Positions 44,999-53,652 of a stretch of 64,000 nucleotides of DNA are shown piece by piece. The DNA is from Intestinimonas massiliensis (ex Afouda et al. 2020). Its GTDB lineage: Bacteria > Bacillota > Clostridia > Oscillospirales > Oscillospiraceae. Numbering within the stretch: the first letter of the stretch is position 1; each line of letters begins with the position of its first letter. Position numbers and translations under genes: made by a program. Location of the stretch: NCBI RefSeq assembly GCF_001244995.1, contig NZ_LN869528.1, positions 384,773 to 448,772 of the forward strand. Direction: 5' to 3'. The notes beneath the pieces were generated by a model. It ran no database searches and had not been told where the DNA came from. It worked only from the letters and a program-made list of their open reading frames with translations.

Positions 44999-45871
44999 TT
45001 ACAGCTCCTTGAGGGCCTGCTCCACCAGGGCCCGCATGGCTCCGGCGTCCAGCGCCACGTCCGCGAAGTGCTCCAGCGCGTATACCGCCTGATAGATCAG
45101 CATGCCCAGACCGTTGAGGGCGGGATGCCCCGCCTCCCGGGCCCGGCACAGCAGCTCGGTCTCCGCCGGGTGGTAGATGAGGTCGCACACCGCCGCCGCC
45201 GGGGGCAACTCCTTCAGAAAGCTCAGGTCCTCAAACTGCCCGCCGGTCCCGGCCATGCCCAGGCTGGTGCAGTTGACCAGCAGCTCGGCCCGGGCCGCCT
45301 CCCGCCGCAGAGTGGCCTGGTCGAAGCCTGCCGCCTTCATCACAGCCGGGGCATGTTGACATAATTCTTCTGCCTTGGCCGCAGTCCGGTTGCACACCGT
45401 CACCGAGGCCGCCCCCTGCTGAACCAGCTTCAAAGCCACGGCCTTGGCCGCGCCGCCGGAGCCCAACAGCAGGACCCGCCGGCCCGCCGGGTCCACGCCT
45501 GCGTCGGCCAAAGCCCGGATAAAGCCCCGTCCGTCCGTGTTGCATCCGTATAATTTACCATTTCTTATACAAACCGTATTCACCGATTGGTACAGCGCCG
45601 CGTCCTGGTCCAGTTCGTCCATGCGGGGCACGAGGTCCAGCTTATGGGGCATGGTGGCATTGAATCCGGCGTACCCCGCCTCCCGGGCAGCATCCAGCCA
45701 GGCCGCCGCCCGCCCCGCCTTCACCGGTTGACATAAATAAACATAGTCCAGTCCCAGCGCCCGGATCATGGTGTTCTGGATCAGAGGGGATTTGGAGTGG
45801 AGCACCGGGTCCCCGATGACGCAGAGCTTCTTGGTGGTATTCTTCAATTCTACCTGCATGCCTTCGTCCAC
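44999..45871 (-). CDS. aroE: Shikimate dehydrogenase
   Basis: The 290-residue product has the substrate site KLCVIGDPVLHSKSPLIQNT, GFNATMPHK (catalytic Lys), the NADP-binding LLGSGGAAKAVALKL, and the CNRTAAKAEEL strand. It reduces 3-dehydroshikimate to shikimate. GTG 45871 gives the longest form, 6 bases after the aroQ stop. ATG 45859 is possible; neither has a good ribosome site. It is the last gene of the operon. Confidence 0.93.
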   Translation of the reverse strand: MDEGMQVELKNTTKKLCVIGDPVLHSKSPLIQNTMIRALGLDYVYLCQPVKAGRAAAWLDAAREAGYAGFNATMPHKLDLVPRMDELDQDAALYQSVNTVCIRNGKLYGCNTDGRGFIRALADAGVDPAGRRVLLLGSGGAAKAVALKLVQQGAASVTVCNRTAAKAEELCQHAPAVMKAAGFDQATLRREAARAELLVNCTSLGMAGTGGQFEDLSFLKELPPAAAVCDLIYHPAETELLCRAREAGHPALNGLGMLIYQAVYALEHFADVALDAGAMRALVEQALKEL

Positions 45872-45877
45872 ATCCCG

Positions 45878-46330
45878 TCAGTCAACGTTCTCTTTGCCTG
45901 CCTTCTCTTGCAAGAGAAAGTAGGACATCGCCGCCTCATAGCCGTAGAGGCCCAAGCCGCAGATCTGCCCCACACAGGCGGGGGCGGTCACCGAGGTGTG
46001 GCGGAATTCCTCCCGCTGGTGGACATTGGAGATGTGGACCTCGACGCAGGGCACCCGCACCGCCTTGAGGGCGTCCAGAAGGGCGTAGCTATAGTGGGTA
46101 AAGGCGCCGGGGTTCATGACGATGGCGTCGTAGACCCCCTGGGCGGCGTGGATGGCGTCGATGATGGCGCCCTCGTGGTTGGACTGGAAGCAGTCGGCGG
46201 CGGCGCCGTGGGCGGCAGCGAAGTCCTTGAGCCGCCGGCACAAGGACTCGTAGTTCTCCCGGCCGTAGATCCCCGGCTCACGCTGGCCCAGCAGGTTCAG
46301 GTTGGGCCCATTGATGATGAGGAATTTCAT
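45878..46330 (-). CDS. aroQ: Type II 3-dehydroquinate dehydratase
   Basis: The 150-residue product carries the dodecameric type II signature [17 protein letters not shown]. The catalytic Tyr loop is followed by [26 protein letters not shown] (Asn and His) and [15 protein letters not shown]. It converts 3-dehydroquinate to 3-dehydroshikimate. ATG 46330 overlaps the aroK stop. Confidence 0.96.
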
Positions 46331-46821
46331 ATGTCCAGCACCTCCAAAATCGTTTGCACCGTGGTCTCCGGGTCGGAAAAGTTGGTGACGGTGTGATGGG
46401 CGGCCGCCCGGTACACCGGCTCCCGCTGGCGAAAGCGCGCCAGAAAAGCCGCCCGGCCGTCCTGGGCCAGGGGCCGGCCCGCCATGGATTCGGCGTCATA
46501 GGTCTCCCCCGGGTCCCGGGCCAGGAAGATCACCGTCCCCGTCTCCCGCAGAGGGTCCATGGCGGCAGGGCGCAGGGGCAGTCCTCCGCCGCAGGCGACG
46601 ATCAGTCCCTCCCGCCGGGCCAGCTCCCCCGCCGCCTCCACCTCCCGGGCGCGGAAATAGTCCTCCCCGCTCTGGGCAAAGATGTCCGGGATGGAGCGGC
46701 CCTCCCGCTCCACGATGAGGGCGTCGGTATCCACCAGCTCCCGCCCCAGGCGCCGGGCCAGCAGGCGGCCGCAGGTGGTCTTGCCGCAGCCCATCATGCC
46801 AATGAGTATGATGTTTTTCAT
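46327..46821 (-). CDS. aroK: Shikimate kinase
   Basis: The 164-residue P-loop kinase has Walker [17 protein letters not shown] at residue 7, LVDTD (shikimate Asp), [15 protein letters not shown], and the LID Arg region AGRPLA. It phosphorylates shikimate. ATG 46821 is 2 bases after the pheA stop. The open frame continues upstream in the pheA region but has no role. Confidence 0.95.
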
Positions 46822-46822
46822 A

Positions 46823-47977
46823 TCAGCCTCCGCACGTCCGGTAGTTGCCCAGGACCCGGAGGCTCTCAGCGGTCTGGGAAAGCTCCCGGAGCACCCCATC
46901 CATGGCCGGATCGGCCAGGTCGCCGGTGAAATCCACAAAGAACAGGTACTCCCAGCTCCGGCCCACAATGGGGCGGGACTCCAGCTTCATCATGTTCAGA
47001 CCGTTGACGGCGAAGAGGGTCATGATCTCGTGGAGCGCACCGCTGCGGTGGGGCAGGACAAACAGGGCGCTGACCTTGTCGCTGCCCGACCGGCGCTCCA
47101 TCACCGGCGAGACCACCACAAAGCGGGTGTAGTTGCTCTCGCTGAGGCTGATGTGCTCGGCCAGGATCTCCAGGCCGTAGAGGGCGGCCGCCCGCCGGGA
47201 GCAGATGGCGGCCTTCGTCACGTCGCCGCTGCCGGCCACGTACCTGCCCGCCTCGGCGGTGTTGAGCCGTGCGATGCCCTTCCAGGCCGGGTGGGCCTTC
47301 AGAAAATCCGCGCACTGACGCAGGCCCTGCTCGTGGGAGTAGACCTCCCGGACGGTGTCCAGGGTGGCCCCTTTGGGGGCCAGCAGGCAGTGCTCCACCT
47401 TGACCACCTGCTCCCCCACGATATAGTGGCCGTACTTGGCCAGCAGGTCGTAGACCTGACTGATGGAGCCGGTGGAGCTGTTCTCGATGGGCACCACGCC
47501 GTAGTCCGCCCGGCCCTCCCTGAGGGCCAGAAAGACCTCCTCCCAGGTCTCCGCCGCCTGCCGGGGGCGCTCCTCCCCGAAGAAGAGGGCGGTGGCCTCC
47601 TCGGCGTAGGCGCCGGGCACCCCCTGATAGAGCACCCTGGGCTGTGTCAGGGGCGGCCGTGCCCCGGCCAGGGCGGCGCGGATACGGGCGTAGCCCTCGT
47701 CCCCCGCCTCGGTCACCAGCTTACGCTGCTGCCGCCGGGAGAGGCCCAGGATGGTCTCGTACAGGGCGGTGACGTCGGCCTTGGCCGCTTGTCCCTCGGC
47801 CAGCGCCGCCTTCCGGGCCAGTACGTCCTTCTCCCGGGCGGCGTCCAGCACCGGGAGGCCGTGGGCCTGCTTATAGGCCCCCACCCGGCCCGTCACCTCC
47901 ATCCGGCGGAGAAACAGGCGGGTCAACTCTCCGTCGATGGCGTCGATCTCTCTGCGGTACGCTTCCAGTTCCGTCAT
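46823..47977 (-). CDS. pheA: Bifunctional chorismate mutase/prephenate dehydratase
   Basis: The 384-residue fusion starts with an AroQ-type chorismate mutase (about residues 1-90, LEAYRREIDAIDGELTRLFLRRM). The prephenate dehydratase domain (about 110-290) has YQGVPGAYAEEA, GVVPIENSSTGSI and the catalytic Thr motif ESNYTRFVVV. A C-terminal ACT domain holds the Phe-binding GALHEIMTLFAVNGLNMMKLESRP. Phenylalanine feedback is therefore expected. It lies between aroC and aroK; no tyrA is in the window. Confidence 0.96.
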   Translation of the reverse strand: MTELEAYRREIDAIDGELTRLFLRRMEVTGRVGAYKQAHGLPVLDAAREKDVLARKAALAEGQAAKADVTALYETILGLSRRQQRKLVTEAGDEGYARIRAALAGARPPLTQPRVLYQGVPGAYAEEATALFFGEERPRQAAETWEEVFLALREGRADYGVVPIENSSTGSISQVYDLLAKYGHYIVGEQVVKVEHCLLAPKGATLDTVREVYSHEQGLRQCADFLKAHPAWKGIARLNTAEAGRYVAGSGDVTKAAICSRRAAALYGLEILAEHISLSESNYTRFVVVSPVMERRSGSDKVSALFVLPHRSGALHEIMTLFAVNGLNMMKLESRPIVGRSWEYLFFVDFTGDLADPAMDGVLRELSQTAESLRVLGNYRTCGG

Positions 47978-47986
47978 ACCGTCACC

Positions 47987-48964
47987 TCACAGGTCCAGCA
48001 GTGCGCAGCTCGCCAGGGCGGCGGCCGCCTCGATGACCACCACCGCCCGGGGCACGATGCAGGGGTCGTGCCGGCCGTGGATAGACAGCCTGGCGTCACA
48101 GCCCCGCTCTAGGTCCACGGTGTCCTGCTCCAGAGAAATGGAGGGAGTGGGCCGGATACAGACCTCGAACTCCACCGGCATCCCGTTGGTGATGCCGCCA
48201 TTGACCCCGCCGGAGCGGTTGGTCCGGGTCCGGACGGTCTCTCCCTCCATATAGAAGGGATCGTTGGCCTGGCTGCCCCGGAGGGCGGCGAAGCCGAAGC
48301 CTGCGCCGAAGGCCACCGCCTTGACGGCGGGGACGGCATACAGGTATTGGGCGAACAGGCCCTCCACGTTACACCCGAAGTCGGGGCTCCCCAGCCCGGC
48401 GGGCAGGCCGGTGACGGTACAGCGGATGCACCCCCCCACCGAGTCCCCGTCGGCCTTGGCGGCCAGGACGGCCTGCTCCATCTGCTCCGGGGTGGGGTCG
48501 GGAATGCCCGCCACGTTGGAGACGGCGGCGGCGACCGCCACCCCCCACTCCCGCAGGATCAGCTTAGCCACCGCCCCGGCGAACACCAGGGGGGCGGTGA
48601 GCCGGCCGGAGAAGTGGCCGCCGCCCCGGTAGTCGTTGTGGCCGCCGTAGCGGACGCCGCCGCTGTAGTCGGCGTGGCCCGGCCGGGGCAGCGCCTTGAG
48701 CTGGGCGTAGTCCCCGCTGCGGGTGTCGGTGTTTGAGATGACGGCACACAGGGGGGTGCCGGTGGTCTTTCCCTCAAAGACGCCGGAGAGGATCTGGACC
48801 TCGTCGGCCTCCTTCCGGGCGGTGGACATGGCGCTCCCGCCCGGAGCCCGGCGGGCCATCTCGGCCCGGATGAAGTCCCAGTCCAACGCCACGCCGGAGG
48901 GCGCCCCCTCCAGGGTGACGCCGATGGCGGGGCCGTGGGACTCTCCGAAGATGATGTGTCGCAT
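47987..48964 (-). CDS. aroC: Chorismate synthase
   Basis: The 325-residue product begins RHIIFGESHGPAIGV, the first conserved block, so it lacks the 8-10 residues that normally precede it. The family usually has 350-390 residues, so it is a compact form. Later motifs are GGHNDYRGGGHFSGRLT (FMN/EPSP loop), TNRSGGVNGGITNGMP and HDPCIVPRAVVV. It makes chorismate from EPSP with reduced FMN. ATG 48964 follows the aroA stop by 5 bases. Confidence 0.95.
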   Translation of the reverse strand: MRHIIFGESHGPAIGVTLEGAPSGVALDWDFIRAEMARRAPGGSAMSTARKEADEVQILSGVFEGKTTGTPLCAVISNTDTRSGDYAQLKALPRPGHADYSGGVRYGGHNDYRGGGHFSGRLTAPLVFAGAVAKLILREWGVAVAAAVSNVAGIPDPTPEQMEQAVLAAKADGDSVGGCIRCTVTGLPAGLGSPDFGCNVEGLFAQYLYAVPAVKAVAFGAGFGFAALRGSQANDPFYMEGETVRTRTNRSGGVNGGITNGMPVEFEVCIRPTPSISLEQDTVDLERGCDARLSIHGRHDPCIVPRAVVVIEAAAALASCALLDL

Positions 48965-48969
48965 AGTGT

Positions 48970-50142
48970 TCAGCTCCTCTGTATCTGTCCGCCCAGGCGC
49001 TCGTAGTCCTCCCAGAAGTCGGGGTAGGACTTGGCCACGCACTCCGCCCCGGTGATGGTGACGGGGGCGGCGCAGCGGGTGGCCGCGACAGCGGCCATCA
49101 TGGCGATGCGGTGGTCGTTGTGGCTGTCCACCGTCACGCCCCCGGCCAGGCCCTCCGGCTGTCCGGTGATGGTCAGGCGGTCCGCCCCCTCAACCACGTC
49201 GGCCCCCAGGGCGGTGAGCACCTGGGTGACGGCGGTCAGCCGGTCGCTCTCCTTGATGCGCAGCCGGGCGGCGTTGACGATCCGGGTGATCCCCTGCCGC
49301 AGGGCGGCGTGGGCCGCCAGAGGCGGGACCAGGTCGGGGCACTGGGATACGTCCAGCTCCGCCTCGCCGGGACTGCACAATTGCATATGGTAGGGCACGA
49401 TGCACCGGTCCCCCTGGGCGGAGCGGGGGTTGAGCCCCAGAATCTCCACCTGACCGCCCAGACCGTTGGCGGCGTAATAGAAGGCGGCCTGGGAGTAGTC
49501 GCTCTCCACCGCGGCGCGGCAGGGGCGGTAGGTCTGCCCGCCGGGGACCCGTAGGGTCCGCCCGTCGGGGCACTCCGCCCGGATGCCGAAGCGCTCCAGG
49601 GCCTCCAGGGTCATGTCCACGTAGCCCCGGGACTCCAGCGGAGTGGTCAGCGTGATCCGGGAGTCCCCCTCCAGCAGGGGCAGGGCATAGAGCAGGCCGG
49701 TGACAAACTGGGAGGATACGTCCCCGGGCAGGGCAAAGGTCCCCGGCGTGAGCCTCCCTTGGACGGTAAGGACTCCGTCCTCCTGCCGGTAAGCGATCCC
49801 CTTCTCGTCAAAGAGATCGAAGTAGGGCTTCTGGGGCCGCGCCATGAGCCGCCCCCGGCCGGTGAAGCGCCCGCCGCCCCGCAGGGCCAGGGCCACCGGG
49901 ATCAGAAAGCGCAGTGTGGAGCCCGACTCGCCGCAGTCCAGGACGGGCAGGTCCTCCCCCGGCGCTTTCAGCGCGGCCATGCAGCGGCGGGTGGCCTGGA
50001 TGTCCTGGGAGTCCGCCAGATGTTCGATCCGGCTCTCCCCGTCCGCCAGGGCGGCGGCGATGAGCAGCCGGTGGGCCTGGGACTTGGAGGGGGGCGGCGT
50101 GATGGCCCCCCTCAGCAGGCCGGGGGTGATGGTCACATTCAT
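48970..50142 (-). CDS. aroA: 3-phosphoshikimate 1-carboxyvinyltransferase (EPSP synthase)
   Basis: The 390-residue product is slightly shorter than the usual 425-430. PPPSKSQAHRLLIAAAL is the shikimate-phosphate Lys/Ser/Arg block, GESGSTLRFLIPVAL the PEP loop, and GDVSSQFVTGLLYALPLL and SHNDHRIAMMAAVAA the later motifs. ATG 50142 overlaps the aroB stop. An upstream extension of the frame overlaps aroB and is a shadow. Confidence 0.95.
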   Translation of the reverse strand: MNVTITPGLLRGAITPPPSKSQAHRLLIAAALADGESRIEHLADSQDIQATRRCMAALKAPGEDLPVLDCGESGSTLRFLIPVALALRGGGRFTGRGRLMARPQKPYFDLFDEKGIAYRQEDGVLTVQGRLTPGTFALPGDVSSQFVTGLLYALPLLEGDSRITLTTPLESRGYVDMTLEALERFGIRAECPDGRTLRVPGGQTYRPCRAAVESDYSQAAFYYAANGLGGQVEILGLNPRSAQGDRCIVPYHMQLCSPGEAELDVSQCPDLVPPLAAHAALRQGITRIVNAARLRIKESDRLTAVTQVLTALGADVVEGADRLTITGQPEGLAGGVTVDSHNDHRIAMMAAVAATRCAAPVTITGAECVAKSYPDFWEDYERLGGQIQRS

Positions 50143-51215
50143 TCCGCGCAGCCCTCCAGCAGTCCCAGCAGCTCCCGCTTGGACATCCGGTGCAGGACGG
50201 CCCTGCCCAGGTCCTCCAGAAGGACAAGGGTGATCTGTTCTCCCGTCCCCTTCTTGTCCAGGCCGACGGCGGCGGCGTAGTCGGCCTGGGTACAGGGAAT
50301 TCGGGTCGGCAGGCCGAAGGCGGAGACCAGGGCCTCGACGCGCTCCGGCACCCCCGCCGGGGTCACCCCCAGCGCCGCTCCCAGCCGGGCGGCCAGGCAC
50401 ATGCCCGCCGCCACGGCCTGGCCGTGGGTCCAGGTCTCATAGTGTCCCGCCTTCTCATAGGCGTGGCCCAGAGTGTGGCCGAAGTTGAGCACCATCCGCT
50501 CGCCGGTGTCCCGCTCGTCCTTCTCCACCACCGCCCGCTTCAAATCACAGCAGGTATACAGGACCGATTCGATGTTCTCCATCACCGCCCGGCGGCTGGG
50601 CGTCTTCTCCAGGGCCCGAAAGAAGGCGGCGTCCCGGATGCAGCCATATTTGATGACCTCGGCCATGCCGTCGGAGAAGGTCTTGTCCTCCAGCGTGTCC
50701 AACACCTCCGGGTCCATGACCACCAGGCGCGGCTGCCAGAAGGCCCCGGCCAGATTCTTGCCGGCGGGCAGGTCGATGGCCACCTTGCCCCCCACGGAGG
50801 AGTCCACCTGGGCCAGCAGGGTGGTAGGGACCTGCACAAAGTCTACCCCCCGCAGGATGGTGGCGGCGGCAAAGCCCGCCAGGTCGCCCACCACGCCGCC
50901 GCCCAGGGCCACCACGGCGTCGGTGCGGGTGAGGCCCATCTCCATAAAGGAGTCGTAGAGCACCCCCAGGTTGTGCAGGCTCTTGGTCTGCTCCCCGGCG
51001 GGCAGGGAGATTACCGAGGCGGTGTACCCCCTGGCCCAGAGGCTCTGGAGCAGCCGATGGGCATACAGGCCCCCCACGGTGTCGTCGGTGACCACTGCCA
51101 GGCGAGTGGCCCTGGGCAGCACATGCTGGCACAGCTTGCCCGTGTCGTCCAGCCGTCCGGGGGCGATGTGGATGTCATAGGAGCGATCTCCCAGGGAAAC
51201 AGGCAGCAATTTCAT
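50139..51215 (-). CDS. aroB: 3-dehydroquinate synthase
   Basis: The 358-residue product has GGGVVGDLAGFAAATILRGVDFVQVPTTLLAQVDSSVGGK, the NAD/metal core of DHQ synthase. It also has LNFGHTLGHAYE with the zinc His residues and HGQAVAAGM. It cyclises DAHP to 3-dehydroquinate. ATG 51215 lies 38 bases after the DAHP synthase stop. Confidence 0.96.
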   Translation of the reverse strand: MKLLPVSLGDRSYDIHIAPGRLDDTGKLCQHVLPRATRLAVVTDDTVGGLYAHRLLQSLWARGYTASVISLPAGEQTKSLHNLGVLYDSFMEMGLTRTDAVVALGGGVVGDLAGFAAATILRGVDFVQVPTTLLAQVDSSVGGKVAIDLPAGKNLAGAFWQPRLVVMDPEVLDTLEDKTFSDGMAEVIKYGCIRDAAFFRALEKTPSRRAVMENIESVLYTCCDLKRAVVEKDERDTGERMVLNFGHTLGHAYEKAGHYETWTHGQAVAAGMCLAARLGAALGVTPAGVPERVEALVSAFGLPTRIPCTQADYAAAVGLDKKGTGEQITLVLLEDLGRAVLHRMSKRELLGLLEGCAE

Positions 51216-51253: not shown

Positions 51254-52273
51254 TTACAGCACCAGGCTCTTGCCCATCATGGGTACCATGGTCTTGACTT
51301 TTTTCATCAGCGCGTCAAACTTCTCCGGCGTCAGGGACTGCTGTCCGTCGCACTTGGCGTGGGGCGGGTCGTTGTGGACCTCGACAATCAGTCCGTCGGC
51401 CCCGGCGGCGATGGCCGCCATGGCCAGGGGCTCCACCATCCAGTACATGCCGGCGGCATGGGAGGGGTCCACGATGACGGGTAGGTGGCTCATCTTCTTC
51501 ACCGCCGGAATGGCCGACACGTCCAGGGTGTTGCGGGTGTAAGTCTCGAAGGTGCGGATGCCCCGTTCACAGAGAATGACGTTCTCGTTGCCCTCCGACA
51601 TGATGTACTCGGCGGACATGATCCACTCCTCGTAGCTGTTGGACAGGCCCCGCTTGAGGAGAATGGGCTTGGACATCCTGCCCACCTCCTTGAGCAGCTC
51701 GAAGTTCTGCATGTTCCGGGCGCCCACCTGGACCACGTCCACCTCCCGCTCGAACAGGTCGGCCATGCGGGGGTCCATGATCTCGGTGACGATGGGCAGA
51801 CCGGTGGCCTGGCGGGCCTCCATCAGCAGGTCCAGGCCGGGGGTGCCCATGCCCTGGAAGGAGTAGGGGGAGGTGCGGGGCTTGAAAGCGCCGCCCCGCA
51901 GCAGGGCCGCGCCGGAGCGCTTCACGTCCTTGGCGACCTCCACGATCTGCTCCTCCGACTCCACAGAGCAGGGGCCGGCGATGACCGAGAAGCTGCCGCC
52001 GCCGATCCGGGCCTTGCCCACCTCCACCACGGTGTCCTCGGGGTGGAACTTGCGGTTGGCCTTCTTGTAGGGCTCCTGGACCCGCATCACCCGCTCCACA
52101 TGGGGATTGATGCTGATTTTGTCCATGTCCACGGCGGTGGTGTCTCCCACCAGGCCCAGGATGGTGCAGCCCACGCCGTTGGTGACGCCCACCTCCAGGC
52201 CCTGGGCCTTGAACTGTTCGGCCAGGGCGGCGATGTCCTCCTGCCGGGTACCGGGTCTCATAACGACTACCAT
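51254..52273 (-). CDS. aroF: 3-deoxy-7-phosphoheptulonate (DAHP) synthase, type I-beta with regulatory N-domain
   Basis: The 339-residue product has an N-terminal ferredoxin-like regulatory domain (about residues 1-68) seen in feedback-sensitive I-beta enzymes. The barrel follows with VIAGPCSVESEEQI, GGAFKPRTSPYSFQG, LLKRGLSN, CERGIRTFETYTRNTLD and VIVDPSHAAG. It commits PEP and erythrose-4-phosphate to aromatic synthesis. AAAGGGAG precedes ATG 52273. It is the first enzyme gene of the operon and directly follows the attenuator. Confidence 0.96.
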   Translation of the reverse strand: MVVVMRPGTRQEDIAALAEQFKAQGLEVGVTNGVGCTILGLVGDTTAVDMDKISINPHVERVMRVQEPYKKANRKFHPEDTVVEVGKARIGGGSFSVIAGPCSVESEEQIVEVAKDVKRSGAALLRGGAFKPRTSPYSFQGMGTPGLDLLMEARQATGLPIVTEIMDPRMADLFEREVDVVQVGARNMQNFELLKEVGRMSKPILLKRGLSNSYEEWIMSAEYIMSEGNENVILCERGIRTFETYTRNTLDVSAIPAVKKMSHLPVIVDPSHAAGMYWMVEPLAMAAIAAGADGLIVEVHNDPPHAKCDGQQSLTPEKFDALMKKVKTMVPMMGKSLVL

Positions 52274-52310
52274 AACTGTTGACTCCCTTTCCGCAATGGG
52301 CGCGGAACAG

Positions 52311-52351
52311 ATATAAAAAATGCGCCCATTGACGATAAAATCAATGAGCGC
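52311..52351 (-). terminator. Attenuator terminator upstream of aroF
   Basis: On the minus strand GCGCTCATTGA pairs with TCAATGGGCGC (11 bp, one G-U) around an 8-base loop and is followed by ATTTTTTATAT. It lies 43 bases after the leader-peptide stop and 38 bases before the aroF start, so it controls read-through into the operon. Confidence 0.88.
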
Positions 52352-52395
52352 AGCTCAAAACATGCCCATGGGCCCCCTTGCGGGGCCCGCCCATT
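52343..52395 (-). promoter_or_regulatory. Antiterminator pairing and inner hairpin in the aro leader RNA
   Basis: AATGGGCG, overlapping the leader-peptide stop (52388-52395), can pair with CGCTCATT (52343-52350) of the terminator 5' arm. Seven of eight pairs are Watson-Crick, enclosing a 7-bp GGGCCCC/GGGGCCC hairpin (52370-52388). A ribosome at the leader stop would block this pairing and allow the terminator; a ribosome stalled at aromatic codons would leave it free. Confidence 0.7.
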
Positions 52396-52505
52396 CACTT
52401 TATCCCGCTGTATTTCTCCACGCCAAAAAAGCCGGCGCCCATAAATCGAGCCCAGCCAAAATAGGGAAAGCAGCGGGATGCAGTTGTGAGGAGATCGTAT
52501 CGCAT
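52395..52505 (-). CDS. Aromatic-rich leader peptide of the aro operon
   Basis: A 36-residue frame starts at ATG 52505 behind GTGAGG and ends in TGA. Nine residues are aromatic: five Phe, three Tyr and one Trp, concentrated in CFPYFGWARF and FFGVEKY. Being upstream of a terminator and the DAHP synthase gene, it fits a ribosome-mediated sensor of charged tRNA-Phe, tRNA-Tyr and tRNA-Trp. I know of no named homologue. Confidence 0.8.
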   Translation of the reverse strand: MRYDLLTTASRCFPYFGWARFMGAGFFGVEKYSGIK

Positions 52506-52536
52506 ACTGGCAGCCTCACTTTGAATGGTTAAGGGC

Positions 52537-52565
52537 ATTGTACACCCAACCGGCGGAAAAGGCAA
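52537..52565 (-). promoter_or_regulatory. Promoter of the aro operon
   Basis: TTGCCT-N17-TACAAT on the minus strand, with the -10 about 32 bases upstream of the leader-peptide ATG. Confidence 0.7.
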
Positions 52566-52582
52566 GGGGAAATTTTAATGCG

Positions 52583-52611
52583 TTGAAGCGGAAAAGAAAA
52601 GGTAGTATAAT
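52583..52611 (+). promoter_or_regulatory. Promoter of the 52636 membrane-protein gene
   Basis: TTGAAG-N17-TATAAT, 25 bases before ATG 52636; it is divergent from and next to the aro promoter. Confidence 0.6.
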
Positions 52612-52635
52612 GGGGGCCACAAGGGGGGCTGCGAG

Positions 52636-53652
52636 ATGGGAGCCAAGAGACGTACCGTCAGTGCGTGGATCTGCCGTGTCCTGCACACACTGTTCATGGG
52701 TCTGGCACTTCTGGCGGCCGGACTGTTCGTCCTGCGGCTGCTGCTGGTGGACCCGCTGGCGCGGGGGATCGGCTACAAAACACCCAAGACGCGGGAGCTG
52801 CTGCCTCCCGAGCCCATCGACGCGGTCATGGAGCGGGAGGGGCAGATCTATGTGCTGTACGGCGGCACCGCGGTGGTAGACGTGTACGACTCCGCCGGGC
52901 AGTTTTTGTGGGCGGTGTCTGTCCCCTACCACGACCACAACGAGGACGCCAAAATGAAGGTGGAGGGCGGGAGTTTGTTTCTCTATCAGGTCAGGCACCA
53001 GGTCTATGAGTATCGCTGCACGGACGGTCGGTTTCTGGGCAGCTTCGACCAGGAGGCGGAGGCGGAGCGGTTCCCGGGCGGCGGCTATCAGACCCGCCCC
53101 GTACAGGACGGGGAGGCGACGGCTGGGACGCTATACTTCAAGCATCTGCAAGTGCTGCGTGGGGACACGTCGGGGGGCTTTGTCCCAGTCATCTCTCACA
53201 GTCGCTGGTGGGAGCTCCTGTACTTCCACAATATCTGGCTGCTGGGGTTCTCCTCCGGCGTGGCCCTCTTCCTTCTGGAGCACATCCGCCTGCCCAAGCT
53301 GGCGCTGAAACAGGCCCGGCAGGAGCGGGGAGCGGAGGAGAAGATCTACCCCAAGAGCCAGGGGGCAAGGGCCTTCCTCAAGCACGCCCGGATCACTGTG
53401 GCCGTGGACCTCGCCTATCTGGCGGTCAACCTGACGGCGGTATTGGGGTTCCACTCAGCCAGCCTCTCCATCGGCATCATGCCGGTGGCGCTCTGGTTCA
53501 TCGGCTCCAACATCGTGGTGGGAAACAGGGTGGAAAAGCAGCACCTCTGGGGAACGGATGCCCTCCTGGTCCAGAAGTGGACGGGGTATCTCTGGGCGTC
53601 CTTTATCGCGGCCTTTGTCTCGGTGATGGCGGGCAGCCTGCTGATACACTAG
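52636..53652 (+). CDS. Membrane protein of unknown function
   Basis: The 338-residue product has an N-terminal membrane helix (about residues 18-38, LFMGLALLAAGLFVLRLLLV). An extracytoplasmic domain of about 155 residues follows, with beta-propeller-like strands (REGQIYVLYGGTAVVDVYDSAGQFLWAVSVP). Three or four more helices (about 200-335) complete it. The VYDSAGQFLW pattern resembles a single PQQ- or NHL-like blade. I do not recognise a family. It is transcribed away from the aro operon from its own promoter. Confidence 0.75.
   Translation: MGAKRRTVSAWICRVLHTLFMGLALLAAGLFVLRLLLVDPLARGIGYKTPKTRELLPPEPIDAVMEREGQIYVLYGGTAVVDVYDSAGQFLWAVSVPYHDHNEDAKMKVEGGSLFLYQVRHQVYEYRCTDGRFLGSFDQEAEAERFPGGGYQTRPVQDGEATAGTLYFKHLQVLRGDTSGGFVPVISHSRWWELLYFHNIWLLGFSSGVALFLLEHIRLPKLALKQARQERGAEEKIYPKSQGARAFLKHARITVAVDLAYLAVNLTAVLGFHSASLSIGIMPVALWFIGSNIVVGNRVEKQHLWGTDALLVQKWTGYLWASFIAAFVSVMAGSLLIH

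Follow-up and report, generated by a model that had tools for sequence, protein, structure and literature searches.

In the window, a 64,000-nucleotide stretch of Intestinimonas massiliensis DNA, the operon aroF-aroB-aroA-aroC-pheA-aroK-aroQ-aroE is very probably controlled by ribosome-mediated transcription attenuation in response to charged tRNA-Phe and, less so, charged tRNA-Tyr. This reading is well supported at the level of sequence: ahead of aroF we observe a leader ORF conserved in sequence and frame, a terminator, two covarying helices and a codon composition that matches the genes of the operon. When Phe-tRNA is scarce, a ribosome would stall where the aromatic codons of the leader begin. 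It would thereby mask the 5' strand of the helix around the control codons, so that the sequence at the end of the leader would be free to pair with the 5' arm of the terminator and RNA polymerase would read through. With ample Phe-tRNA, the ribosome would reach the stop codon and cover the leader-end sequence, the terminator would form and transcription would stop. A device of like layout, with more Tyr codons, would serve the sister aroF-tyrA operon of the same genome. The leader signals and the genes behind them are as follows.

52537..52565, minus strand: promoter-like site TTGCCT-N17-TACAAT (match to consensus only)
52395..52505, minus strand: leader ORF MRYDLLTTASRCFPYFGWARFMGAGFFGVEKYSGIK* (ORF call, homologue comparison, frame test)
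51254..52273, minus strand: DAHP synthase of the aroF type, first gene of the operon (PF00793, PF18152)
50139..51215, minus strand: aroB, 3-dehydroquinate synthase (Pfam)
48970..50142, minus strand: aroA, EPSP synthase (Pfam)
47987..48964, minus strand: aroC, chorismate synthase (Pfam)
46823..47977, minus strand: pheA, chorismate mutase-prephenate dehydratase, the Phe-branch enzyme (Pfam/NCBIfam)
46327..46821, minus strand: aroK, shikimate kinase (Pfam)
45878..46330, minus strand: aroQ, type II dehydroquinase (Pfam)
44999..45871, minus strand: aroE, shikimate dehydrogenase (Pfam)

Since pheA is among the genes behind aroF, the operon encodes more than the common pathway, to which an earlier note on this DNA had confined it. 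The same genome holds a second DAHP synthase gene (G000:C6:310484-311497), which has tyrA (prephenate dehydrogenase) directly behind it and a Tyr-rich leader, MRSFSGHVYYGSYYRYDFFGNGNFCCP, ahead of it at about 310307-310390.

The leader reading frame

The leader ORF runs on the minus strand from an ATG at 52505 to a TGA at 52397-52395. Its 36 codons include nine aromatic ones (five Phe, each TTT, three Tyr and one Trp), grouped in the clusters CFPYFGWARF and FFGVEKY; the counts and the clusters are those that the earlier note described. The promoter proposed upstream is matched by a consensus-like candidate at 52565-52537, from which transcription would presumably start, and promoter-like sites of the form TTGCAT...TGTAAAAT were seen by eye at the same position in several relatives. 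Translation would begin behind a TGAGG Shine-Dalgarno (SD) sequence which, like the ATG, is invariant in 20/20 rows of an alignment of close orthologs (alignment A1). The leader is also unannotated, as had been claimed: Rfam scans returned zero relevant families across the whole window and, in the leader region, only two eukaryotic families with scores far under their cut-offs, while a search of four leader peptides against Pfam and NCBIfam returned zero families.

We compared the leader with those at 95 DAHP synthase loci, hand-picked from a larger list of matches within this genus, family and order. ORFs with an ATG, an SD and at least six aromatics per 20 residues were present in 79 of 93 upstream regions (two of the 95 were too short); of the controls, no reverse complement (0 of 93) and 86 of 2790 dinucleotide shuffles had one. 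The most aromatic ORF was taken as the leader of each region, and controls were picked by the identical rule. Across 89 leaders, the aromatic fraction was 0.27 in the leader frame versus 0.08 and 0.17 in the two alternative frames, which contained stops in 46/89 and 65/89 leaders, respectively. Phe codons in these leaders were TTT in 301 cases and TTC in 80, as compared with 20 and 43 in six genes of the window. The leader ORF exceeds chance.

The first locus set yielded a match at 112 of 115 loci (not L068, L087 and L104), with L006 having 7 bases upstream. We detected no leader at L187, L188, L189 and L202 among the 95 loci, nor at L059 and L062 outside them. Other examples outside the 95 are without a clear leader (L025, L030, L074, L076, L090, L091 and L092), have a leader (L086, L089, L016 and L114) or have a Tyr-rich one (L057, L058, L061 and L064). 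The four just named among the 95 are, like L259 and L263-L265, close orthologs that lack a recognisable leader. Among the first 50 named loci (L242-L291, from Flavonifractor, Pseudoflavonifractor, Intestinimonas, other Oscillospiraceae and unplaced records), an ORF with ATG and SD had at least five aromatics per 20 residues in 40 and at least six in 38; no leader was found in ten, one of which had 7 bases upstream. The stricter threshold of six was reached in 18 of the next 30 loci (L292-L321), including Clostridium zeae, C. guangxiense, C. tetanomorphum, C. bovifaecis, Pelosinus, Christensenella and Anaerostipes butyraticus. A 21-base pattern of the leader core, with two or fewer mismatches, occurred in 24 of 200 family genomes, once each, at DAHP synthase loci in several cases and elsewhere in a few. 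Four matches with one or two mismatches lie off the fetched DAHP synthase loci (G151:C102:76140, G090:C34:127667, G171:C118:15450 and G229:C48:11669) and may be due to chance or represent further leaders.

In Clostridia the expected device would be a T-box, which senses tRNA charging and controls read-through, or a TRAP-type attenuator, and the window's genome does contain 15 T-box matches, 4 of them above the cut-off. Yet the T-box covariance model had no match in the window at the gathering threshold and none in 52240-52640 at a relaxed threshold, and no TRAP gene was found in the genome by a search that detected the one in the control genome of Bacillus subtilis. On these scans and this gene search we ruled out both devices at the locus, which agrees with the earlier note; it is scarcely conceivable that either operates here. 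T-box matches of 75, 82 and 73 bits, all below the cut-off of 93, precede trpE, tyrS and pheS in the same genome (genes by Pfam), with specifiers read by eye as UGG, UAC and UUC, respectively. The Trp branch and two synthetases thus appear to be under T-boxes and both DAHP synthase operons under leaders. One further match (G000:C6:316775-317025, L127) lies near the aroF-tyrA operon, at a distance of a few kilobases, and the gene behind it is one that we take to encode a methionine-type ABC transporter binding protein.

T-boxes do stand directly ahead of DAHP synthase in other genomes, with specifiers read by eye as UUC (Phe) in G038 and G048, from the same order, and in Sedimentibacter (L304). 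The T-box operons of G038 and G048 contain pheA, and tyrA was not found in them. At two Sedimentibacter loci a T-box takes the leader's place, as seen in a scan of 20 of 32 loci (L290-L321). These UUC T-boxes at DAHP synthase genes point to Phe as the likely signal at the window locus as well.

Leader composition and operon content

We established the order of the genes that follow each DAHP synthase by tblastn, using the window proteins and the genome's tyrA, and counted aromatic codons in 89 of the 95 loci, omitting L187, L188, L189 and L202 (no leader) and L239 and L240 (T-box); seven of the 89 leaders could not be classed from the available sequence. Leaders of operons with pheA but without tyrA (38 leaders) had on average 4.9 Phe, 1.5 Tyr and 0.8 Trp codons, with ranges of 3-8 for Phe and 0-4 for Tyr, and Phe exceeded Tyr in 34 of them and Tyr exceeded Phe in none. 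The means were 1.6 Phe and 5.6 Tyr ahead of aroF-tyrA operons (19 leaders) and 5.2 Phe and 3.6 Tyr ahead of operons with both pheA and tyrA (25 leaders). Accordingly, the median share of Tyr, Y/(F+Y), was 0.17 for pheA without tyrA, 0.40 for both and 0.80 for aroF-tyrA. In genomes that have both kinds of leader, the Tyr share was lower in the operon without tyrA in 17/17 pairs, one of which (G177) uses an unclassed leader. The Phe/Tyr mix of the leader follows the content of the operon.

Most of these loci fall in two clades and so represent few independent events. On a tree of the 95 loci, two independent pairs contrasted aroF-tyrA with pheA operons, and the difference lay in the expected direction in 1.5 of them on average and never in the opposite one; three pairs contrasted tyrA presence with absence (cut-off 0.3), of which 1.0 agreed, 0.5 were opposite and 1.5 tied. 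As two to three pairs cannot reach significance, we turned to independent contrasts, which over 98 rows gave p=0.002 with three-level coding and p=0.017 for tyrA presence alone. The same tendency was seen in 16 further leaders from named records, whose Tyr share was lower without tyrA behind aroF (5 leaders) than with it (11 leaders; p=0.017), for DAHP synthases that are 62-68% identical and downstream sequence that extends at most about 1.5 kb past the gene. These 16 come from 19 aromatic-rich leaders in L290 and L292-L321, of which L299, L315 and L318 were dropped for having no recognised neighbour gene.

The composition bears directly on the signal. The earlier note had held that the leader reads all three aromatics alike and so gauges the whole common pathway, and the window ORF does carry all three codon types, just as 29/38 leaders of this operon type carry a Trp codon. 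Across the 38 leaders, however, Tyr varies and Phe is steady, pheA is part of the operon, and the Trp codon lies inside a predicted stem and recurs in only 2/25 leaders of operons with tyrA and pheA; trpE, moreover, has its own UGG T-box. We therefore regard an even reading of all three aromatics as improbable, and a Phe-biased leader on a pheA operon, matched with a Tyr-biased leader on aroF-tyrA, replaces it. The position of the Trp codon within the predicted inner stem may be the reason for its retention.

Constraint on the peptide itself was assessed in 40 window-type leaders, comprising the 20 of alignment A1 and 20 named ones picked for ARF. These share the core FGWARFxGxGFFG, in which the conservation of A, R and F is partly built in because half of the leaders were selected for ARF. 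A conserved core of this kind could belong to an arrest peptide that, in the manner of the tryptophan-sensing TnaC, detects a free metabolite inside the ribosome tunnel. It is, though, conserved at the nucleotide level, third bases included, with pS close to pN (0.28 and 0.24 overall; 0.39 and 0.17 at seven aromatic columns), and the three operon classes are alike in composition more than in sequence, which makes an arrest peptide very unlikely. At 52448-52443 on the minus strand, the Arg codon is CGA and the next Phe codon is TTT in 40/40 leaders each, and CGA accounts for 1/114 Arg codons in six window genes. Such codon-exact retention argues for a constraint on codons or RNA; the rare CGA before TTT could pace the ribosome or form part of a hairpin loop. 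The more distant leader L014 has CGC at that Arg position.

RNA structure and modelled switching

Transcribed from the minus strand, the leader RNA contains the following segments and helices.

52514..52519, minus strand: segment 0, GTGAGG, which holds the leader SD and can pair with segment 1 (helix 1)
52486..52491, minus strand: segment 1, CCTCAC (codons 5-7), which can partner segment 0 or pair its CTCA with TGGG of segment 2
52472..52479, minus strand: 5' strand of helix P2, ATCCCGCT (codons 9-12), immediately ahead of the aromatic codons (covariation)
52430..52457, minus strand: predicted inner hairpin around GATTTA, codons GWARFMGAG (fold prediction)
52402..52409, minus strand: 3' strand of helix P2, AGCGGGAT, in the last codons of the leader (covariation)
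52388..52395, minus strand: segment 2, AATGGGCG, which overlaps the leader stop and is the 5' side of the proposed antiterminator
52340..52352, minus strand: segment 3, terminator 5' arm TGCGCTCATTGAT
52315..52333, minus strand: segment 4, terminator 3' arm and U tract
52294..52303, minus strand: segment 5, GCGCCCATTG, complementary to segment 4 and just 5' of the aroF SD (by eye)

The terminator that had been noticed behind the leader is borne out: at 52352-52321 on the minus strand, 13 pairs are followed by TTTTTT, with a folding energy of -19.1 kcal/mol. Terminators below -8 kcal/mol were found between the stop of the chosen ORF and the gene in 91/95 regions, including one T-box locus and one leaderless locus, versus 27/190 mononucleotide shuffles. 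Covariation supports both this helix and P2. Over the SD hairpin, P2 and the terminator taken together, 12 of 26 pairs changed on both sides among the 20 orthologs of A1, a number reached in 0/500 shuffles, and all 12 fall in P2 (4/8) and the terminator (8/12; 7/11 in its main helix). P2 was paired in 88.1% of cells in the 20 relatives. The SD hairpin, formed by segments 0 and 1, was paired in 99.2% of cells in the same number of relatives and is silent on covariation because 5 of its 6 pairs never vary. The inner hairpin had zero pairs changed on both sides and was broken in two of 20 rows.

For an attenuator, the control codons should lie within a helix; here P2 covaries, and the leader RNAs fold below their shuffles, with z-scores against dinucleotide shuffles not above 0 in 89/89 leaders, below -2 in 73 and averaging about -3. 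A stalled ribosome would presumably open P2. Alignment of related leaders, which the earlier note had recommended as a check for conserved aromatic codons and compensatory changes, showed compensatory changes in the terminator and P2. Tyr codons 3 and 32 of the window leader are common to 0 of the other 39 window-type leaders (Tyr 15 to six), and single-base indels near the leader end alter the last codons among relatives.

Those single-base indels, together with strong nucleotide conservation, covarying stems and folding below shuffles, would also suit a structured RNA, such as a riboswitch or a protein site, in which the ORF is incidental and the aromatics are encoded by the stems through coincidence. 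Under that explanation it would be hard to see why TGAGG and ATG never vary in A1, why indels in the aromatic core come as 3 or 6 bases, why the aromatic enrichment is frame-specific, or why Phe versus Tyr content follows operon content; Rfam, in addition, is without a match. We give it the same slim chance as an arrest peptide, and return to the attenuator.

The competing structure is where the attenuator reading is least secure, and the corresponding claim of the earlier note stands only in part. The sequence AATGGGCG (52395-52388), which resembles the terminator 3' arm, can indeed form 8 base pairs with CGCTCATT (52350-52343), part of the terminator 5' arm, and segments 2 and 3 are paired in 87.0% of cells. 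Tests of covariation, permutation and duplex strength were, however, negative: shuffles paired in 86.7% of cells, with 261/500 pairing equally well; matched antiterminator partners gave no signal relative to permuted ones (p=0.75); and the best duplex between segments 2 and 3 barely beat shuffles, with mean z of -0.65, +0.24 and -0.66 by class. The CTCA of segment 1 and the TGGG or TGAG of segment 2 were pairable in 97.4% of cells. As the latter motif can pair either with the CTCA of segment 1 or with that of segment 3, five consecutive segments are mutually complementary, and we conjecture that, through them, initiation on the leader is part of the switch.

We then modelled ribosome blocking on RNA ending at the terminator 5' arm at 88 loci, with three stall sites and three mononucleotide shuffles per locus (this test and the duplex test also omit L158). 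The extent to which upstream sequence paired with the terminator 5' arm was 0.47 with no ribosome, 0.59 with the first three aromatic codons blocked and 0.50 with the stop blocked, compared with 0.56, 0.55 and 0.55 in shuffled leaders. The increase on stalling had Wilcoxon p-values of 3e-9 against no ribosome and 4e-4 against the stop, for loci that are related to one another and with assumed footprint limits. Stalling exceeded no ribosome at 65/88 loci and exceeded the stop at only 55/88, including 20/37 of the window class and 12/19 Tyr leaders. By class, the effect of stalling was clearest among mixed leaders (0.39, 0.60 and 0.41 for none, stall and stop), could be seen among Tyr leaders relative to no ribosome (0.35, 0.55 and 0.47) and was small in the window's class (0.54, 0.58 and 0.55). 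The three values were 0.71, 0.75 and 0.62 for the window leader itself, and ran in the wrong direction for the genome's own Tyr leader, L116 (0.59, 0.42 and 0.55), as they did for L148 and L216. The antiterminator is the weakest link of the attenuator reading.

Several other features of these RNAs were seen. Stretches like GCGCCCATTG were seen by eye behind the terminator of several close relatives and of L165, the two partners having changed together in L165; they occur in only some relatives, and in the window segment 5 may act on read-through transcripts. Among the aroF-tyrA leaders, 8/19 (L116, L190-L193 and L195-L197) end in CP*. In several predicted folds, the codons of this ending pair with the first Tyr codons and supply the 3' strand of a long stem, which may be the reason for the shared end. 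In the leaders of L216 and L223, the codons for KVKV, after those for FYF, are close to the reverse complement of the latter and make a stem of at least 12 pairs.

Known leaders and significance

Leader control of aroF is already known in Corynebacterium and has been proposed in Acholeplasma. In Corynebacterium glutamicum, the aroR leader before aroF responds to Phe and not to Tyr (Neshat et al. 2014, as cited in PMC11802643). Like the window leader, aroR (Phe-Tyr-Phe) precedes a DAHP synthase operon, and its transcription rises on Phe limitation; compared by description only, it differs in belonging to Actinobacteria and in that the passages on it in PMC11802643 describe no second, Tyr-rich leader. 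For Actinobacteria more widely, the section of PMC1262725 on Phe/Tyr operons saw no conserved RNA element upstream. The proposed Acholeplasma element, uORFC-13-1, is likewise a uORF with Phe codon(s) that stands before a terminator and aroF; as described in the relevant part of PMC8632094, it is confined to Acholeplasma and environmental sequences (24 representatives), has at least one Phe codon and comes with no mention of a Tyr variant.

Two Escherichia coli systems invite comparison by description. The pheL leader controls pheA by Phe-tRNA charging (passage in PMC11802643) and resembles the window leader in this, although the window operon begins with DAHP synthase and includes the common pathway. 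For aroF-tyrA, the same gene pair as in the sister operon, attenuation-like control was hypothesised (Camakaris et al. 1980, cited in PMC8632094), and the 5' UTR reportedly differs from uORFC-13-1 (same source, in the part concerned). Firmicutes are described as having His leader peptides where others have T-boxes (in sections of PMC2965389 and PMC9413887), and these are histidine leaders, unlike the aromatic one of the window. The T-box family itself (RF00230) resembles the leader in preceding DAHP synthase in G038, G048 and Sedimentibacter; unlike the leader, it has no leader ORF, and it is absent from the window locus. Within the freely licensed literature, our searches turned up no description of leaders ahead of DAHP synthase in Clostridia, none of a Tyr-rich one preceding aroF-tyrA and none of leaders whose codon content tracks the genes of the operon; aroF goes unmentioned in the portion of the main text of PMC11109978 considered here.

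A wider proposal seems to us evenly poised between right and wrong. Clostridia and their relatives would share a family of DAHP synthase attenuators, widespread and unannotated, in which operon content sets the codon mix like a dial: Phe with pheA, Tyr (in a Tyr-specific leader peptide) with tyrA only, both with both. The leaders would have been rewritten after DAHP synthase duplicated and the operon split; in the window class, the leader SD would be the first of the five complementary segments, and initiation may be involved in the switch.

If the attenuator reading is true, ribosome-mediated attenuation would be a routine control of entry into aromatic biosynthesis in Clostridia, where T-boxes are expected. 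The two DAHP synthase isozymes of one cell are apparently assigned to Phe and Tyr through leader codons; in Escherichia coli, that division of labour falls to repressors and allosteric isozymes. Because three operon types coexist, how the specificity of a regulator is rewritten when an operon splits becomes testable, and the same system would allow one to ask why a leader peptide and a T-box swap at one gene.
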